A stretch of DNA of 58,369 nucleotides from Solirubrobacterales bacterium (GTDB taxonomy: Bacteria; Actinomycetota; Thermoleophilia; Solirubrobacterales; Solirubrobacteraceae), in NCBI GenBank assembly GCA_019241635.1, contig JAFAWR010000306.1:1-58369 (forward strand), written 5' to 3'. Both the position numbers and the translations under genes were made by a program. Of the stretch, positions 12,378 to 18,068 are shown in pieces. The notes below the pieces were generated by a model. It made no database searches. It was given only the letters and a program-made list of their open reading frames with translations, and had not been told where the DNA came from. The first letter of the stretch is position 1. Every line of letters begins with the position of its first letter.

Positions 12378-12806
12378 CTAACCGCTCGAGCCGAACCCCC
12401 CGCCGCCCCGCTCGGAGACCGCCAGCTCCTCCACCTCCTCGACCGCGGGCGTCTGGACCCTGACCAGCACGAGCTGGGCGATCCGGTCGCCGGCGGCGAT
12501 TCTGAACACCTCGTCGCGGTCGGTGTTCAGCAGGAGCACGCGGATCTCGCCGCGGTAGCCGGAGTCGATCAGGCCGGGCGCGTTGACCAGCGCGATCCCG
12601 TGCCGGGCGGCCAGGCCCGAGCGCGCCAGCACCAGGCCGGCTTCTCCATCGGGAATCTCGACCGCGATCCCGGTGGGGATGGACGCGCGCCTGCCGGGTT
12701 CGAGCACCGCATCCTCCAGCGCGTAGAGATCGAGGCCCGCGTCGCCCGGGTAGGCGCGGGTCGGCAGCCGCGCGCGGCCGTCCAGCCGGCGCACCTTGAG
12801 CGTCAT
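12378..12806 (-). CDS. dut: Deoxyuridine 5'-triphosphate nucleotidohydrolase
   Basis: The product has 142 residues and hydrolyses dUTP to dUMP and pyrophosphate, keeping uracil out of DNA. The five trimeric dUTPase motifs are recognisable: YPGDAGLDLYAL (1), LVLARSGLAARHG (2), NAPGLIDSGYRGEI (3), FRIAAGDRIAQLVLV (4), and the C-terminal Gly-rich ERGGGGFGSSG (5), which is Arg-poor compared with the usual RGxxGFGS form. The ATG overlaps the hflX stop by 4 bases, so both are probably one transcript. Confidence 0.95.
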   Translation of the reverse strand: MTLKVRRLDGRARLPTRAYPGDAGLDLYALEDAVLEPGRRASIPTGIAVEIPDGEAGLVLARSGLAARHGIALVNAPGLIDSGYRGEIRVLLLNTDRDEVFRIAAGDRIAQLVLVRVQTPAVEEVEELAVSERGGGGFGSSG

Positions 12807-14113
12807 GCGTAGGGCCGGCTGAGCGCGAACTCCTGGTAGCGCGCAGCCACCGGGCCCGGCAGACGTGCCATGACCCGCACCCCATCGGGGGTGTCCTCAC
12901 GCTCGAGGTCCCCGGCGAGGTGATGCAGCTCGGCCAGCCGCGCCCCCGATTCGTAGGGGATCAGCAGCTCGACGTCCTGGAGCGTGCGGGCGAACTCGTC
13001 CTCGATGCGCTGAACGAGCCCGTCGATGCCCTCGCCGGTGATCGCCGAGACCAGCACCGCGCCAGGGTGACGACGCTGGAGCTCGGCCCGTCGCTCCTCG
13101 TCGATCCGGTCGGCCTTGGCCAGGACGAGGATCTCGGGCACCGCATCGGCGTTGATCTCGGCCAGGACATCCTCGACCGCCGCGGTCATGGCCAGCAGCT
13201 CGTCTTCGGGCACCGAGGCGTCGACCACGTGGAGGATCAGGTCGGCCAGCCGCGTCTCCTCGAGCGTGGCGCCGAACGCCTCGACGAGCTGGTGAGGAAG
13301 CTTCCGGATGAACCCGACCGTGTCGGTCAGCAGATAGTCGCGCCCACCGGCGCGCAGGAGCCGGGTCGTCGGATCCAGCGTGTGAAACAGCCGGTCACGG
13401 ACGCCGACGGTCGATCCGGTCAGCGCGTTGAGCAGCGTCGACTTGCCCGCGTTGGTGTAGCCGGCCAGCGCCACGGAGGGCAGATGGGTGCGCTCGCGCT
13501 CGGCCCGCATCACCGAGCGGCTCGAGCGGACATGCCCGAGCTTTCGCTTCAGGGCGGAGATCCGGTCCCGGGCCAGGCGCCGGTCGGTCTCGATCTGCGT
13601 CTCGCCCGGTCCGCGCGTTCCGATGCCGCCGTCCATGCGCCCGGCGCCCAGACGCTCCAGGTGCGACCACAGGCCGCGCATCCTGGCCAGGTTGTATTCG
13701 AGCTGAGCCAGCTCGACCTGGAGCTTGCCCTCCGCGGTGTGCGCGTGGGAGGCGAAGATGTCGAGGATGATCGCCGTGCGGTCGATCACCGGCAGCCCGA
13801 GCGCCGCCTCCAGATTGCGCTCCTGGCGCGGGGAGAGCTCGTCGTCGCAGGCGACCAGGTTGGCGTCCGAGCGGGACAGCTCGGCCTTCAGCTCGTCGAG
13901 CTTGCCCGGTCCGAGATAGGTGTTGGGATGCGGGTGATCGCGGCGCTGGATGAGCTCGCCGACGCCGGCCACGCCCGCCGTGCGCAGGAGCTCGCGCAGC
14001 TCGGCGAGCTGCTCCTCGTCGCCCTCCGGGACCACCGCGACCAGGTACGCGCGCTGGCGGGCCCGGCGGCCGTTCAACGCCGCCTGGGTGCTTGGGGGTT
14101 GGTCTCGCTGCAC
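12803..14113 (-). CDS. hflX: Ribosome-associated GTPase HflX
   Basis: The product has 436 residues. The N-terminal HflX domain contains HPNTYLGPGKLDELK and CDDELSPRQERNLE. The glycine-rich linker MDGGIGTRGPGETQIETDRR is diagnostic. The G domain follows, with G1 GYTNAGKSTLLN, G3 DTVGFIRKLP and G4 LAKAD in place of NKxD. HflX binds 50S/70S ribosomes and splits stalled ribosomes under stress. The GTG start lacks a clear ribosome site. The gene sits beside dapF/dapL and miaA as in many bacteria, and dut follows with an overlap. Confidence 0.95.
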   Translation of the reverse strand: MQRDQPPSTQAALNGRRARQRAYLVAVVPEGDEEQLAELRELLRTAGVAGVGELIQRRDHPHPNTYLGPGKLDELKAELSRSDANLVACDDELSPRQERNLEAALGLPVIDRTAIILDIFASHAHTAEGKLQVELAQLEYNLARMRGLWSHLERLGAGRMDGGIGTRGPGETQIETDRRLARDRISALKRKLGHVRSSRSVMRAERERTHLPSVALAGYTNAGKSTLLNALTGSTVGVRDRLFHTLDPTTRLLRAGGRDYLLTDTVGFIRKLPHQLVEAFGATLEETRLADLILHVVDASVPEDELLAMTAAVEDVLAEINADAVPEILVLAKADRIDEERRAELQRRHPGAVLVSAITGEGIDGLVQRIEDEFARTLQDVELLIPYESGARLAELHHLAGDLEREDTPDGVRVMARLPGPVAARYQEFALSRPYA

Positions 14114-14697: not shown

Positions 14698-15858
14698 CTA
14701 TAGCTGCCGGATGCGCTCGACCGCCTCGAGCAGCCGGTCGTCGGGCGTGGTCAGCGAGATCCTGAAGTAGCCCTCGCCGCTGGTGCCGTAGGCGCCACCG
14801 GGCGAGATGATCACGCCGGCTTCCTCGAGCACGTGCTCGCAATAGGCGGCCGAGGATTCGAAGCCCGCGGGGATCGGGGCCCAGATGTAGATCGTCCCCT
14901 TGGGCGGGGTGACCTCGACCCCGGCCTGGGTGAGCGCGTCGCAGACGAGGTCGCGCCGGCGCTTGTAGATCGCGTTCATCTCGCGCTTGGCGCCCTCCAG
15001 CTCCGGCCCCAGGGCGGCGGCGCCCGCGAGCTGGACGGCTTCGAAGTTGCCGGAGTCGATGTTCGACTTCAGGTGCCAGTAGTGCTCGATCGCCTCGGCG
15101 TTGCCGACGATCGCCGCGCAGCGCCAGCCGGTCATGTTGTAGCCCTTCGACAGCGAGAACACCTCGACCCCGACCTCCTTGGCCCCCGGCGTCTCCAGGA
15201 AGGACGGCGCGACGTATCCGTCGTAGGTGGTCTCGCTGTAGGCGTTGTCGTGGACGGCCAGGACGTCGTGCTCGCGGGCGAAGGCGACCACCTCCTCGAA
15301 GAACCCGGCCGGGACGATTGATCCGGTCGGGTTGTTCGGGTAGTTGACGAACATCAGCCGGGCCCGCTCGAGGTCCTCGCCGGCGATCGCCCCGAGATCG
15401 GGGGCGAAATCGCGCTCGGCCAGCAAAGGCATGAGCACCGGCCGGCCACCGGCGAGCAGCGGCCCGCCGGTGTAGACGGGATAGCCGGGGTCCGAGGCCA
15501 GCGTGACGTCGCCGGGGTCGAGGAAGGCCAGGTTGAGGTTGAAGATGCACTCCTTGGCGCCGATCGCCGCCATCACCTCGGTCTCCGGGTCGAGCTCCAC
15601 GCCGAACCGACGGGCGTAGAACGCGGCCACGGCCTCACGGAACTCCTGGCGCCCGCGGTTGCTCGGATACTGGTGGGTGCTCGGATCGGTGACCGCGCGC
15701 TGCATCGCCGCGACGATCTGTGGATACGTCGGGGTGTCCGGATCCCCGATCCCCAGGCTGATCACGTCGACGCCGGCGGCGCGCTTGGCGCGGACCTTGC
15801 GCTCGAGCTCGGCGAACATGTACGGGGGGATCAGGTCCAGGCGGCTACTGCGTCGCAT
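14698..15858 (-). CDS. dapL: LL-diaminopimelate aminotransferase
   Basis: The product has 386 residues, fold type I PLP aminotransferase. SLGIGDPDTPTYPQIVAAM, HQYPSNRGRQEFREAVA and VNYPNNPTGSIV are typical of DapL/aspartate aminotransferase-like enzymes, and the Schiff-base lysine is in FSLSKGYNMTGWR. DapL converts tetrahydrodipicolinate to LL-DAP in one step with glutamate, bypassing the succinylase route. ATG 15858 has AGGAG five bases upstream and lies inside the dapF end (14-base overlap ATG...TAG), so the pair is coupled. The overlap with a DapF homologue supports the DapL assignment over a generic aminotransferase. Confidence 0.88.
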   Translation of the reverse strand: MRRSSRLDLIPPYMFAELERKVRAKRAAGVDVISLGIGDPDTPTYPQIVAAMQRAVTDPSTHQYPSNRGRQEFREAVAAFYARRFGVELDPETEVMAAIGAKECIFNLNLAFLDPGDVTLASDPGYPVYTGGPLLAGGRPVLMPLLAERDFAPDLGAIAGEDLERARLMFVNYPNNPTGSIVPAGFFEEVVAFAREHDVLAVHDNAYSETTYDGYVAPSFLETPGAKEVGVEVFSLSKGYNMTGWRCAAIVGNAEAIEHYWHLKSNIDSGNFEAVQLAGAAALGPELEGAKREMNAIYKRRRDLVCDALTQAGVEVTPPKGTIYIWAPIPAGFESSAAYCEHVLEEAGVIISPGGAYGTSGEGYFRISLTTPDDRLLEAVERIRQL

Positions 15859-16711
15859 GCAACTCCTCAACGAAGGTCTCGGCCAGGGTGCCGCGGTACA
15901 CCGGCACCGCCCAGCCTGTCAGCTTGATCTGAAGCTCGCCGGTCACCTCGACGTCGAGCTCACCGCCGTCGAGCACGACGGTAACCGGTGATCGCCCGCC
16001 GTCGAGCACGTAGGCCACGGCGGCCCCGGTCGCGCCGGTCCCACTCGCGGTGGTCTCCCCCACCCCCCGCTCGAAGATGCGCGCGCGGATCCTGGACCGG
16101 GCGGGATCCCCACCGTCGAGCTCGGCGAACCACGAGACGTTGGTCCGGTGGGGAAACAGCTCGTGGTGCTCGATCTCCGGGCCGATCGCCCCAAGATCCA
16201 ATCCCTCCAGCTCCGCCTCGTCGGCGACGCGGATCGCGCATTGCGGGTTGCCGACCTGGACGTGCTGAAAGCGCCACGTGCGGCCGGCGGCGGTGAGCTC
16301 GCCCCGGCCATCGGGAGCGCCGGAGGGATAGCCGGCGCTCTGCACCCGGGCCCGACCCATGTCGACGGCGCACCGCGTGTCGGAGAGGATCAGCGGCCTG
16401 ATCTCGCCGGCGGCGGTCTGGATGGCGAACGAGTCGGCGTCGGTCCACCCGTGGCGGCGCAGGTACAGCACCGCCTCGCGGGCGCCGTTGCCCGACAGCT
16501 CGGCCTCGGAGCCATCGGGGTTGTAGATCCGCAGCCGGGCCACGAAATCCGCGTCGTCGGGCGCTGAGAGGAGCAGGATCCCGTCGGCCGAGACGCCCGT
16601 GTGGGGTGCGCAGATCGCCTGAATCCGCGACGGGGTCAGCTCGAACGGAAGGTCTTCGGCCTCGACGATCACGTAGTCGTTGCCCAGGGCGTGCCACTTC
16701 TCGAACTCCAC
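15845..16711 (-). CDS. dapF: DapF-family protein with both catalytic cysteines replaced by serine
   Basis: The product has 288 residues, normal for diaminopimelate epimerase, and opens with the family signature EFEKWHALGNDYVIV. Substrate-binding segments RIYNPDGSEAEL, VQVGNPQCAIRV and HRTNVSWFAEL are conserved. The two catalytic cysteines are missing: the first motif reads SGNGARE (homologues CGNGxRC), the second GVGETTASGTGATG (homologues ACGTGA). The codons are TCG and AGT; TCG is two changes from any Cys codon, so a sequencing error cannot explain it. Classical DapF needs a Cys/Cys pair as the two bases. GTG 16711 start. dapL overlaps its 3' end. It may be a Ser/Ser epimerase, a re-purposed isomerase or an inactive scaffold. 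Confidence 0.9.
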   Translation of the reverse strand: MEFEKWHALGNDYVIVEAEDLPFELTPSRIQAICAPHTGVSADGILLLSAPDDADFVARLRIYNPDGSEAELSGNGAREAVLYLRRHGWTDADSFAIQTAAGEIRPLILSDTRCAVDMGRARVQSAGYPSGAPDGRGELTAAGRTWRFQHVQVGNPQCAIRVADEAELEGLDLGAIGPEIEHHELFPHRTNVSWFAELDGGDPARSRIRARIFERGVGETTASGTGATGAAVAYVLDGGRSPVTVVLDGGELDVEVTGELQIKLTGWAVPVYRGTLAETFVEELHATQ

Positions 16712-16745
16712 GGGGCGCCAGTGTATGTGTACCGTCGCGCGCGCA

Positions 16746-18068
16746 ATGGTGACGCTCCTGCAGGAACGGACAGTGCGCAGGCGAGGCTGGGTGGGACCTC
16801 GTTACAAATGGCTGCTCGCCGGGCTGGTCGTGGTCTCGCTGGTCGCTCGCATGGCCTGGATCGCCGAGCCCTGCCGCGCCCCGTGCCGTTCCGCGGACGA
16901 CCACACCCTCATCTTCGACGAGGCCTATTACGTCAACGCCGCCCGCGTGATCGCCGGAATCCGGCCCCCGGTCGGCTCGCCGTACGCGAACACGCCGCTG
17001 GGGGACGACGGCAACTCCGAGCATCCCCAGCTCGCCAAGCTGTTGATCGCGGGCGGGATCGAGCTGTTCGGTGACGGGCCGCTGGCCTGGCGGTTGCCCA
17101 GCGTGCTGCTCGGAACGGTGGCGATCCTGGGGATGTTCGCGCTCGTCCGAGCCGCCGGAGGCGGACCCTGGCTGGGGCTGGGAGCGGCCGCGCTGATGGC
17201 CTGCGACAACCTGCTGCTCGTCCACGGCCGGATCGGCACGCTCGATATCTACGCGGTCGCCGCGATGATCTGGGGAGCGGCGCTCTATCTGCGCGATCGG
17301 CCGATCCTGGCGGGCGCGATCATCGGGCTTGGCGCCAGCGCCAAGGAGGTGACGCCGTACGTGCTGCTTGCCCTGGCCGTGCTCGAGCTGGTGCGCTGGT
17401 GGCGGCTGCGCTCGGAGGGCGCGGGGCGGCTGGCCCGCCTGGTCATCTGCGCGGGCGCCTCGGCGGTGATGTTCATGGCCGTGCTCACGGTGATGGGCTG
17501 GATCGCCCCGCCCTACAGCCCCCAGACCGGCAAGCGCGTGCCGAACGGGCCATTCGGCCACGTCGCGCACATCCTGAGCTACGCCGCAAACCAGACGAGC
17601 CCGCACGGACCCACCGGGATCGCCTCCTATCCCTGGGACTGGCTGATCGATCTCAAGCCGATCACCTATCTGCGGATCAATCCGGGCCGCCCCACGGTCC
17701 TGCTGAACCAGATCTCGCCGGCGGTCCACTTCATCGGCCTGATCAGCCCGCCGATCCTGCTCCTGGCCATCCCGGGGCTGCTGCTCGCCGCGCGCCCGGT
17801 CGTCCGGCCGCGGATTCGCCTGACCGACGAGGTGGGCCTGGTCGCCTTGGCCTGGTTCGTCGGGACCTATCTGCCGTTCGTGGCGCTCAGCCTGCTCGAA
17901 AGCCGGACGAGCTACCTGTACTACATGGTGATCGTGATGCCCGGGATCTACCTGGCGGTCGCTGATCTGGTCGCGCGGATCGGTCCCCGACGCAAGCTCG
18001 TCCTGCTGTGGATGGCGGGCGTGGTGGCCGCCGCGGTCGTCCTCTACCCGTTCACCCCGCTGCCGTGA
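16746..18068 (+). CDS. Membrane glycosyltransferase, family 39 (PMT-like)
   Basis: The product has about 440 residues with roughly nine membrane segments. A first helix (WLLAGLVVVSLVARMAWI) leads to the extracytoplasmic loop with FDEAYYVNAARVIAG and NSEHPQLAKLLIAGG; these acidic FDE and EHP motifs are the hallmark of protein O-mannosyltransferase-like GT39 enzymes. LVHGRIGTLDIYAVAAM and ASAKEVTPYVLLAL follow. It should transfer a sugar from a polyprenyl-phosphate donor to an exported protein or glycan. ATG 16746 leaves 34 bases to the divergent dapF GTG, so promoters are very compact. It is convergent with miaA. Confidence 0.85.
   Translation: MVTLLQERTVRRRGWVGPRYKWLLAGLVVVSLVARMAWIAEPCRAPCRSADDHTLIFDEAYYVNAARVIAGIRPPVGSPYANTPLGDDGNSEHPQLAKLLIAGGIELFGDGPLAWRLPSVLLGTVAILGMFALVRAAGGGPWLGLGAAALMACDNLLLVHGRIGTLDIYAVAAMIWGAALYLRDRPILAGAIIGLGASAKEVTPYVLLALAVLELVRWWRLRSEGAGRLARLVICAGASAVMFMAVLTVMGWIAPPYSPQTGKRVPNGPFGHVAHILSYAANQTSPHGPTGIASYPWDWLIDLKPITYLRINPGRPTVLLNQISPAVHFIGLISPPILLLAIPGLLLAARPVVRPRIRLTDEVGLVALAWFVGTYLPFVALSLLESRTSYLYYMVIVMPGIYLAVADLVARIGPRRKLVLLWMAGVVAAAVVLYPFTPLP

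Follow-up and report, generated by a model that had tools for sequence, protein, structure and literature searches.

A diaminopimelate epimerase orthologue with serine in place of both catalytic cysteines throughout Solirubrobacterales

Diaminopimelate epimerase (DapF) is the textbook example of an enzyme in which a Cys thiolate/thiol pair deprotonates a carbon acid of pKa ~29, and it is an antibacterial target whose inhibitors attack the catalytic thiols. In a stretch of 58,369 nucleotides from a Solirubrobacterales bacterium (contig JAFAWR010000306.1 of assembly GCA_019241635.1; the whole stretch is referred to below as the window), we find a dapF gene in which both catalytic cysteines are replaced by serine, and the same pair of serines recurs in all relatives read from the order. 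The Ser/Ser protein is probably (we would put it at roughly 0.7) the working diaminopimelate epimerase of the organism, with an active site free of thiols. Judged from its sequence, it is a DapF by descent, and by mechanism it falls outside the two-cysteine definition of the enzyme. The literature searched, whose coverage leaves out most subscription journals, contained no description of a naturally occurring Ser/Ser DapF.

Active-site residues of the window protein and their conservation in the order

The open reading frame starts at GTG, encodes 288 amino acids and reads NPDGSEAELSGNGARE and FERGVGETTASGTGATGAA. With 190.3 bits against the NCBIfam equivalog model for DapF (TIGR00652, cut-off 114.65 bits), it is assigned to DapF by descent; in Pfam it matches PF01678 only, as two domains, and not the proline racemase family, and its best relatives in the PDB are DapF structures. 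The two motifs that normally hold the catalytic cysteines read LSGNGAR and TASGTGATG, so that both positions are serine (Ser73 and Ser223), as an earlier reading of the sequence alone (the sequence-only reading) had claimed and as the codons confirm directly: from the TCG of Ser73 any Cys codon is two changes away, while from the AGT of Ser223 TGT is one change away.

The replacement extends beyond the cysteines. Four residues are described as catalytic in DapF, namely the two cysteines, His159 and Glu208 (PMC3581254), and His159 has been termed essential to epimerase activity (PMC5885031). In the window protein, GNPH has become GNPQ, Gln157 standing at the position of His159 (H. influenzae numbering), so that this third annotated catalytic residue is altered as well and only the Glu is kept. 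As far as the aligned proteins tell, three of the four catalytic residues of DapF are replaced in Solirubrobacterales. The sequence-only reading, which had described all other substrate-contacting motifs as kept, was thus right about the substrate contacts and had overlooked the catalytic His.

To define how far this pattern extends, dapF loci were fetched throughout Solirubrobacterales, giving an alignment of 121 rows from 118 distinct genomes. All 121 rows have Ser73, and all 119 that are readable at the second position have Ser223; the residue following GNP, at the His159 position, is Gln in every one of the 121, and the residue following TNV is Ser in 113 of the 114 readable rows and Cys in the other one. 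The substrate contacts N11, N64, G74, N75, N155, N191, E214, R215, G224 and T225 are unchanged in the order, and the set of DapF residues that binds diaminopimelate (DAP) (N11, N64, N157, N190, E208 and R209, together with the backbone motifs after the catalytic residues) is matched with 100% conservation. Both the TCN and the AGY families of serine codons are found at both Ser positions, which implies that the hydroxyl was held through codon switches requiring two changes. Among the closest pairs, the ratio of non-synonymous to synonymous substitution rates (dN/dS) lies mostly within 0.13-0.35, dS being unreliable beyond close pairs in these GC-rich genomes, and by this measure the dapF of Solirubrobacterales is under purifying selection.

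The gene is close to single-copy. The window corresponds to contig C256 of a 4.42-Mb assembly that is 75% complete, and a search of this assembly for a Cys/Cys dapF found none. PF01678 is present in 147 of 151 genomes of the order, and in 97/97 of those that are at least 90% complete, single-contig genomes included, with few exceptions as a single two-domain gene. A second, Cys/Cys DapF was considered and rejected, the extra copies read being a DapF-like one in genome G659, which lies on a 4-kb contig, is 54% identical to a DapF of family f34 and is likely contamination, and a divergent DapF-like paralogue. The latter (locus L256, on contig C165 of genome G219) has CGNG and GCATG motifs, and its genome also carries an ordinary Ser/Ser dapF.

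The genomic position is equally that of an orthologue. In at least 36 of 52 loci of the order dapL adjoins dapF, and miaA lies upstream in 18/18; the order miaA-dapF-dapL is shared with Cys/Cys relatives and places the gene in the orthologous position beside genes of the DAP pathway. The check proposed in the sequence-only reading, whether Ser/Ser is found clade-wide and next to dapL, comes out positive.

A structural perspective leads to the same family. An AlphaFold2 model built from six sequences has a predicted local distance difference test score (pLDDT) of 89 and a predicted template modelling score (pTM) of 0.85, and shows the two-domain, pseudo-symmetric fold of DapF. Its best match by VIA is the DapF of P. 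aeruginosa (8qzy; Z 34.6 over 269 residues, 2.1 Å), while structures of the proline racemase superfamily score considerably lower, with Z of ~23-26 compared with up to 34.6 for DapF. The catalytic cysteines of DapF sit at the N-termini of helices (PMC12039745), and in the model Ser73 and Ser223 are predicted to occupy the same place, directly before the corresponding helices. The window protein thus resembles known DapFs (TIGR00652, PF01678; 8qzy, 9mro and 1bwz) in fold, domain architecture, length, substrate contacts and the equivalent of Glu208, and its actinobacterial orthologues in the dapL/miaA neighbourhood, but differs from known DapF in having both Cys as Ser, His159 as Gln, Glu193 as Ser and the helix residue Ala229 as Gly.

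Active-site states across Actinomycetota

Within the class to which the window belongs, the dapF orthologue often has the same miaA-dapF-dapL surroundings as in the order. The Cys/Cys pair is found in families f5, f6, f8 and f10 and in most of f9, one clade of which has Ser/Cys instead; f7 (more than 20 genomes read) and f11 have Ser/Ser. Beyond the class, some members of f18, f25, f26, f32, f47, f48, f55, f62, f74 and f78 have a Ser/Cys DapF, Cys/Ser DapFs come from f22, f35 and f49, and Ser/Ser recurs in f45 and f48. The gene tree implies at least 7 changes at the first position and at least 6 at the second, and the Ser/Ser origin of f45/f48 is set apart on a starred branch; on the evidence of this tree, Ser/Ser DapF arose at least twice in Actinomycetota. 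The approximately unbiased test does not reject a single Ser/Ser origin inside the class (p-AU 0.776), for which reason we make no claim to three separate origins in it. The remaining pocket residues follow a pattern of their own: the Ser/Ser DapFs of f11 and f45/f48 keep both His and Glu193, those of f7 keep His and have Gln for Glu193, and only Solirubrobacterales have lost His.

Several loci deserve separate mention. L048 was read directly as Ser/Ser. The Ser/Cys clade of f9 (L041, L167, L169, L170 and L171) has close Cys/Cys relatives and is, from its placement, a recent replacement at a single position, suited to biochemical comparison. In f48, the Ser/Cys row L151 (genome G537) is nested within Ser/Ser relatives, a pattern that would fit a return to Cys at the second position. 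In the f7 loci L084-L108 the DapFs are often short, some open frames being ~234-270 amino acids, the second motif reads SGTS or SGSS, and dapL adjoins in 1/22. Beyond these families, a pattern scan for the first motif with TCN codons only, covering 386 genomes from the phylum that includes L038 (a Gastranaerophilales metagenome-assembled genome, MAG), gave 8 matches, none of them a DapF recognisable by hidden Markov model; within the scope of this pattern, that phylum did not show the trait.

The replacement looks specific to DapF, since both cysteines of MurI, itself a two-cysteine racemase, are intact (motifs ACN[SA]AT and GCTHYP) in each of the five Ser/Ser genomes in which it was read: one belongs to the order (L222) and four to f7/f11 (L217, L218, L220 and L221). 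From these five genomes we reject the idea that racemases have shed their catalytic cysteines across the board.

A probable thiol-free epimerase and its alternatives

What speaks for a working epimerase is the combination of clade-wide occurrence, near single copy, purifying selection and synteny with the lack of an alternative DapF or of a meso-DAP dehydrogenase (Ddh). In a survey of pathway genes in 30 genomes of the order, no Ddh scored above the cut-off (0/30), which removes a Ddh bypass as an explanation. LysA, a consumer of meso-DAP, was found in 30/30, as was MurE, with the DNPR motif of the meso-DAP type in the 27 whose motif was read. The Asp/Glu racemase family PF01177 has 0-1 matches in most of the genomes tested and offers no conserved stand-in. 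Near-complete genomes G081, G103, G118 and G127 of the order and G007 of f5 have no PF01177 match, an observation that bears on the supply of D-glutamate to the wall. The reading is further supported by the other Cys/Ser and Ser/Cys DapFs of the phylum and by a precedent, the 4-hydroxyproline 2-epimerase of Agrobacterium vitis, an active two-base epimerase with a Ser/Cys pair (PMC4113996). This enzyme belongs to the same fold superfamily, an Asn holds the Ser that stands in place of its first Cys, and a neighbouring His is likewise replaced; it differs in family and substrate and in keeping one Cys, whereas the window DapF has Ser at both positions.

With somewhat less assurance, and only a little beyond even odds, we favour a fuller account, in which a Ser/Ser enzyme lacking thiols, and in this order also the catalytic His, carries out a two-base 1,1-proton transfer at the unactivated alpha-carbon of LL-DAP and evolved at least twice in Actinomycetota, probably via single-Ser intermediates and possibly escaping thiol oxidation. 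In the most likely mechanism of a working epimerase, DapL would make LL-DAP, on which DapF would close through its unchanged contacts. The Cys thiolate/thiol pair would be replaced by Ser73 and Ser223, both of which lie at the N-terminal end of a central helix: one Ser hydroxyl or hydroxylate would remove the alpha proton and the other would reprotonate the opposite face, yielding meso-DAP for MurE and LysA. For this to work, the helix dipoles, the backbone amides and Asn75 of the SGN motif would have to lower the pKa of the serines, and the changes of His159 to Gln and Glu193 to Ser would imply a re-tuned charge network in the pocket. Resistance to oxidation is a plausible benefit, because peroxide inactivates the Cys/Cys DapF of C. 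glutamicum by linking the two catalytic cysteines in a disulfide (PMC5296763). The sequence, its conservation, copy number and context, the fold prediction and the pathway content are what the analysis shows directly; catalysis, proton transfer by serine and this benefit are inferred. Should the account hold, a natural, order-wide Ser/Ser DapF and the single-Ser forms of the phylum would mean that this chemistry does not need sulfur; they would offer a set of evolved forms in series from which to work out how the barrier is lowered by the pocket, and would predict enzymes insensitive to thiol-directed inhibitors and oxidants.

A number of observations weigh against a working Ser/Ser enzyme. 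The pKa of serine is far above that of cysteine, the assignment to Conexibacter woesei of genome G198, discussed below, is putative, and the second-shell changes would be equally compatible with a change of function as with re-tuning. Single Cys-to-Ser mutants of PddB keep <0.1% activity (PMC8225329), the same source citing a likewise <0.1% for Cys-to-Ser in M. tuberculosis DapF, and the activity of HisR Cys-to-Ser mutants is greatly reduced. In addition, the His replaced by Gln here is the residue held to be essential for epimerase activity (PMC5885031). The engineered C73S and C217S mutants of H. influenzae DapF (2q9h and 2q9j) share the fold and have Ser at one of the same positions; they are single laboratory changes, whereas the window form has both, occurs naturally and is fixed across the order.

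These mutants lend weight to the main rival, which we consider unlikely: meso-DAP would come from some unrelated epimerase, for example a racemase dependent on pyridoxal phosphate (PLP) or a promiscuous amino-acid racemase, while the Ser/Ser protein would bind LL-DAP, be catalytically dead and persist in a scaffolding, chaperone or regulatory role towards DapL or its pathway. Cys-to-Ser changes cripple related enzymes, and here His is lost too; E. coli without dapF grows slowly in minimal medium (PMC5892946), so some supply of meso-DAP by other enzymes is possible in principle; and some genomes carry additional proteins of the Asp/Glu-racemase family. However, no conserved second candidate was found in the searches for PF01177 and Ddh (PLP racemases were not surveyed), the residues that contact the substrate near the reacting carbon do not vary, and the four DapF states form a graded series in which the Ser/Ser proteins of f11 and f45/f48 keep His and Glu. 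If the Ser/Ser protein were inactive, meso-DAP in these soil bacteria would have to come from an undiscovered epimerase; profile-based annotation labels such proteins DapF, overlooking the missing residues.

Less probable still is a changed function, with another amino-acid substrate or a one-base reaction such as dehydration. The Ser/Thr trans-3-hydroxyproline dehydratase of the proline racemase superfamily shares the fold, a catalytic Ser and a thiol-free active site, but it performs a one-base dehydration with no epimerisation, and its Thr is non-catalytic. DapF-like proteins also include racemases of histidine, diaminobutyrate (Dab) and O-ureidoserine; HisR, CntK, PddB and the O-ureidoserine racemase, which have the DapF fold and are cofactor-independent, are Cys-dependent and act on other substrates. 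Against such a change, the distal DAP-binding residues N64, N155, N191, E214 and R215 are 100% kept in the order, dapL is syntenic, and without another DapF or Ddh no known enzyme would supply meso-DAP to LysA and MurE.

The sequence-only reading had left a choice between a Ser/Ser enzyme with an altered acid/base mechanism and an LL-DAP wall, the protein then having another role. The former is best supported, by clade-wide occurrence, near single copy and synteny. The latter, in which the order needs no epimerase, would account for the lost catalytic residues, but it is contradicted by LysA in all genomes surveyed and by the walls of cultured members, and we regard it as very improbable. Conexibacter woesei has an A1gamma wall with meso-DAP, an isomer described as diagnostic of Solirubrobacterales as a whole (PMC3035278); Solirubrobacter deserti contains it as well (PMC10722151), the published wall chemistry being that of cultured members and the window organism an uncultured MAG. 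Ser/Ser is the state of the sole DapF of G198, the putative C. woesei genome (one contig, 6,359,369 bp).

Finally, a decaying or redundant copy, a sequencing error or a contaminant, for which only the missing cysteines and the 75% completeness of the assembly could be cited, is refuted as base-call error, pseudogene or contaminant by the invariant Ser/Ser/Gln set in 118 genomes, which also bears out the earlier claim that no miscalled base is involved, and by purifying selection; the scattered decay beside a canonical Cys/Cys dapF that the sequence-only reading had named as the sign of lost function is not what these genomes contain.

Gene neighbourhood and coordinates

The features discussed are collected in Table 1. 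From its likely ATG, dapL overlaps dapF by 14 bases, in agreement with the overlap described in the sequence-only reading.

Table 1. Coordinates in the window of dapF, its altered or retained catalytic-site codons and the neighbouring genes
Feature	Position	Strand	Remarks
dapF orthologue, 288 amino acids, Ser/Ser/Gln active site	15845..16711	-	profile match; best Foldseek and VIA matches are DapF structures
Ser73 codon TCG	16493..16495	-	site of catalytic Cys73 (H. influenzae); directly precedes helix 74-86 in the AlphaFold2 model
Ser223 codon AGT	16043..16045	-	site of catalytic Cys217 (H. influenzae); directly precedes helix 224-236 in the AlphaFold2 model
Gln157 codon CAA	16241..16243	-	site of catalytic His159; His catalytic according to PMC3581254
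Ser193 codon TCG	16133..16135	-	TNVE to TNVS; nearly all other actinobacterial DapFs read have Glu
Glu214 codon GAG	16070..16072	-	equals catalytic/substrate-binding Glu208, kept
dapL, LL-diaminopimelate aminotransferase	14698..15870	-	533 bits to PRK09276 subfamily; overlaps dapF stop; likely ATG 15858
hflX GTPase	12803..14113	-	conserved downstream neighbour
miaA	18142..19080	-	conserved upstream neighbour; start approximate

Between miaA and dapF, at 16680-18068 on the plus strand and thus in divergent orientation, the window also contains an open reading frame resembling a membrane glycosyltransferase.
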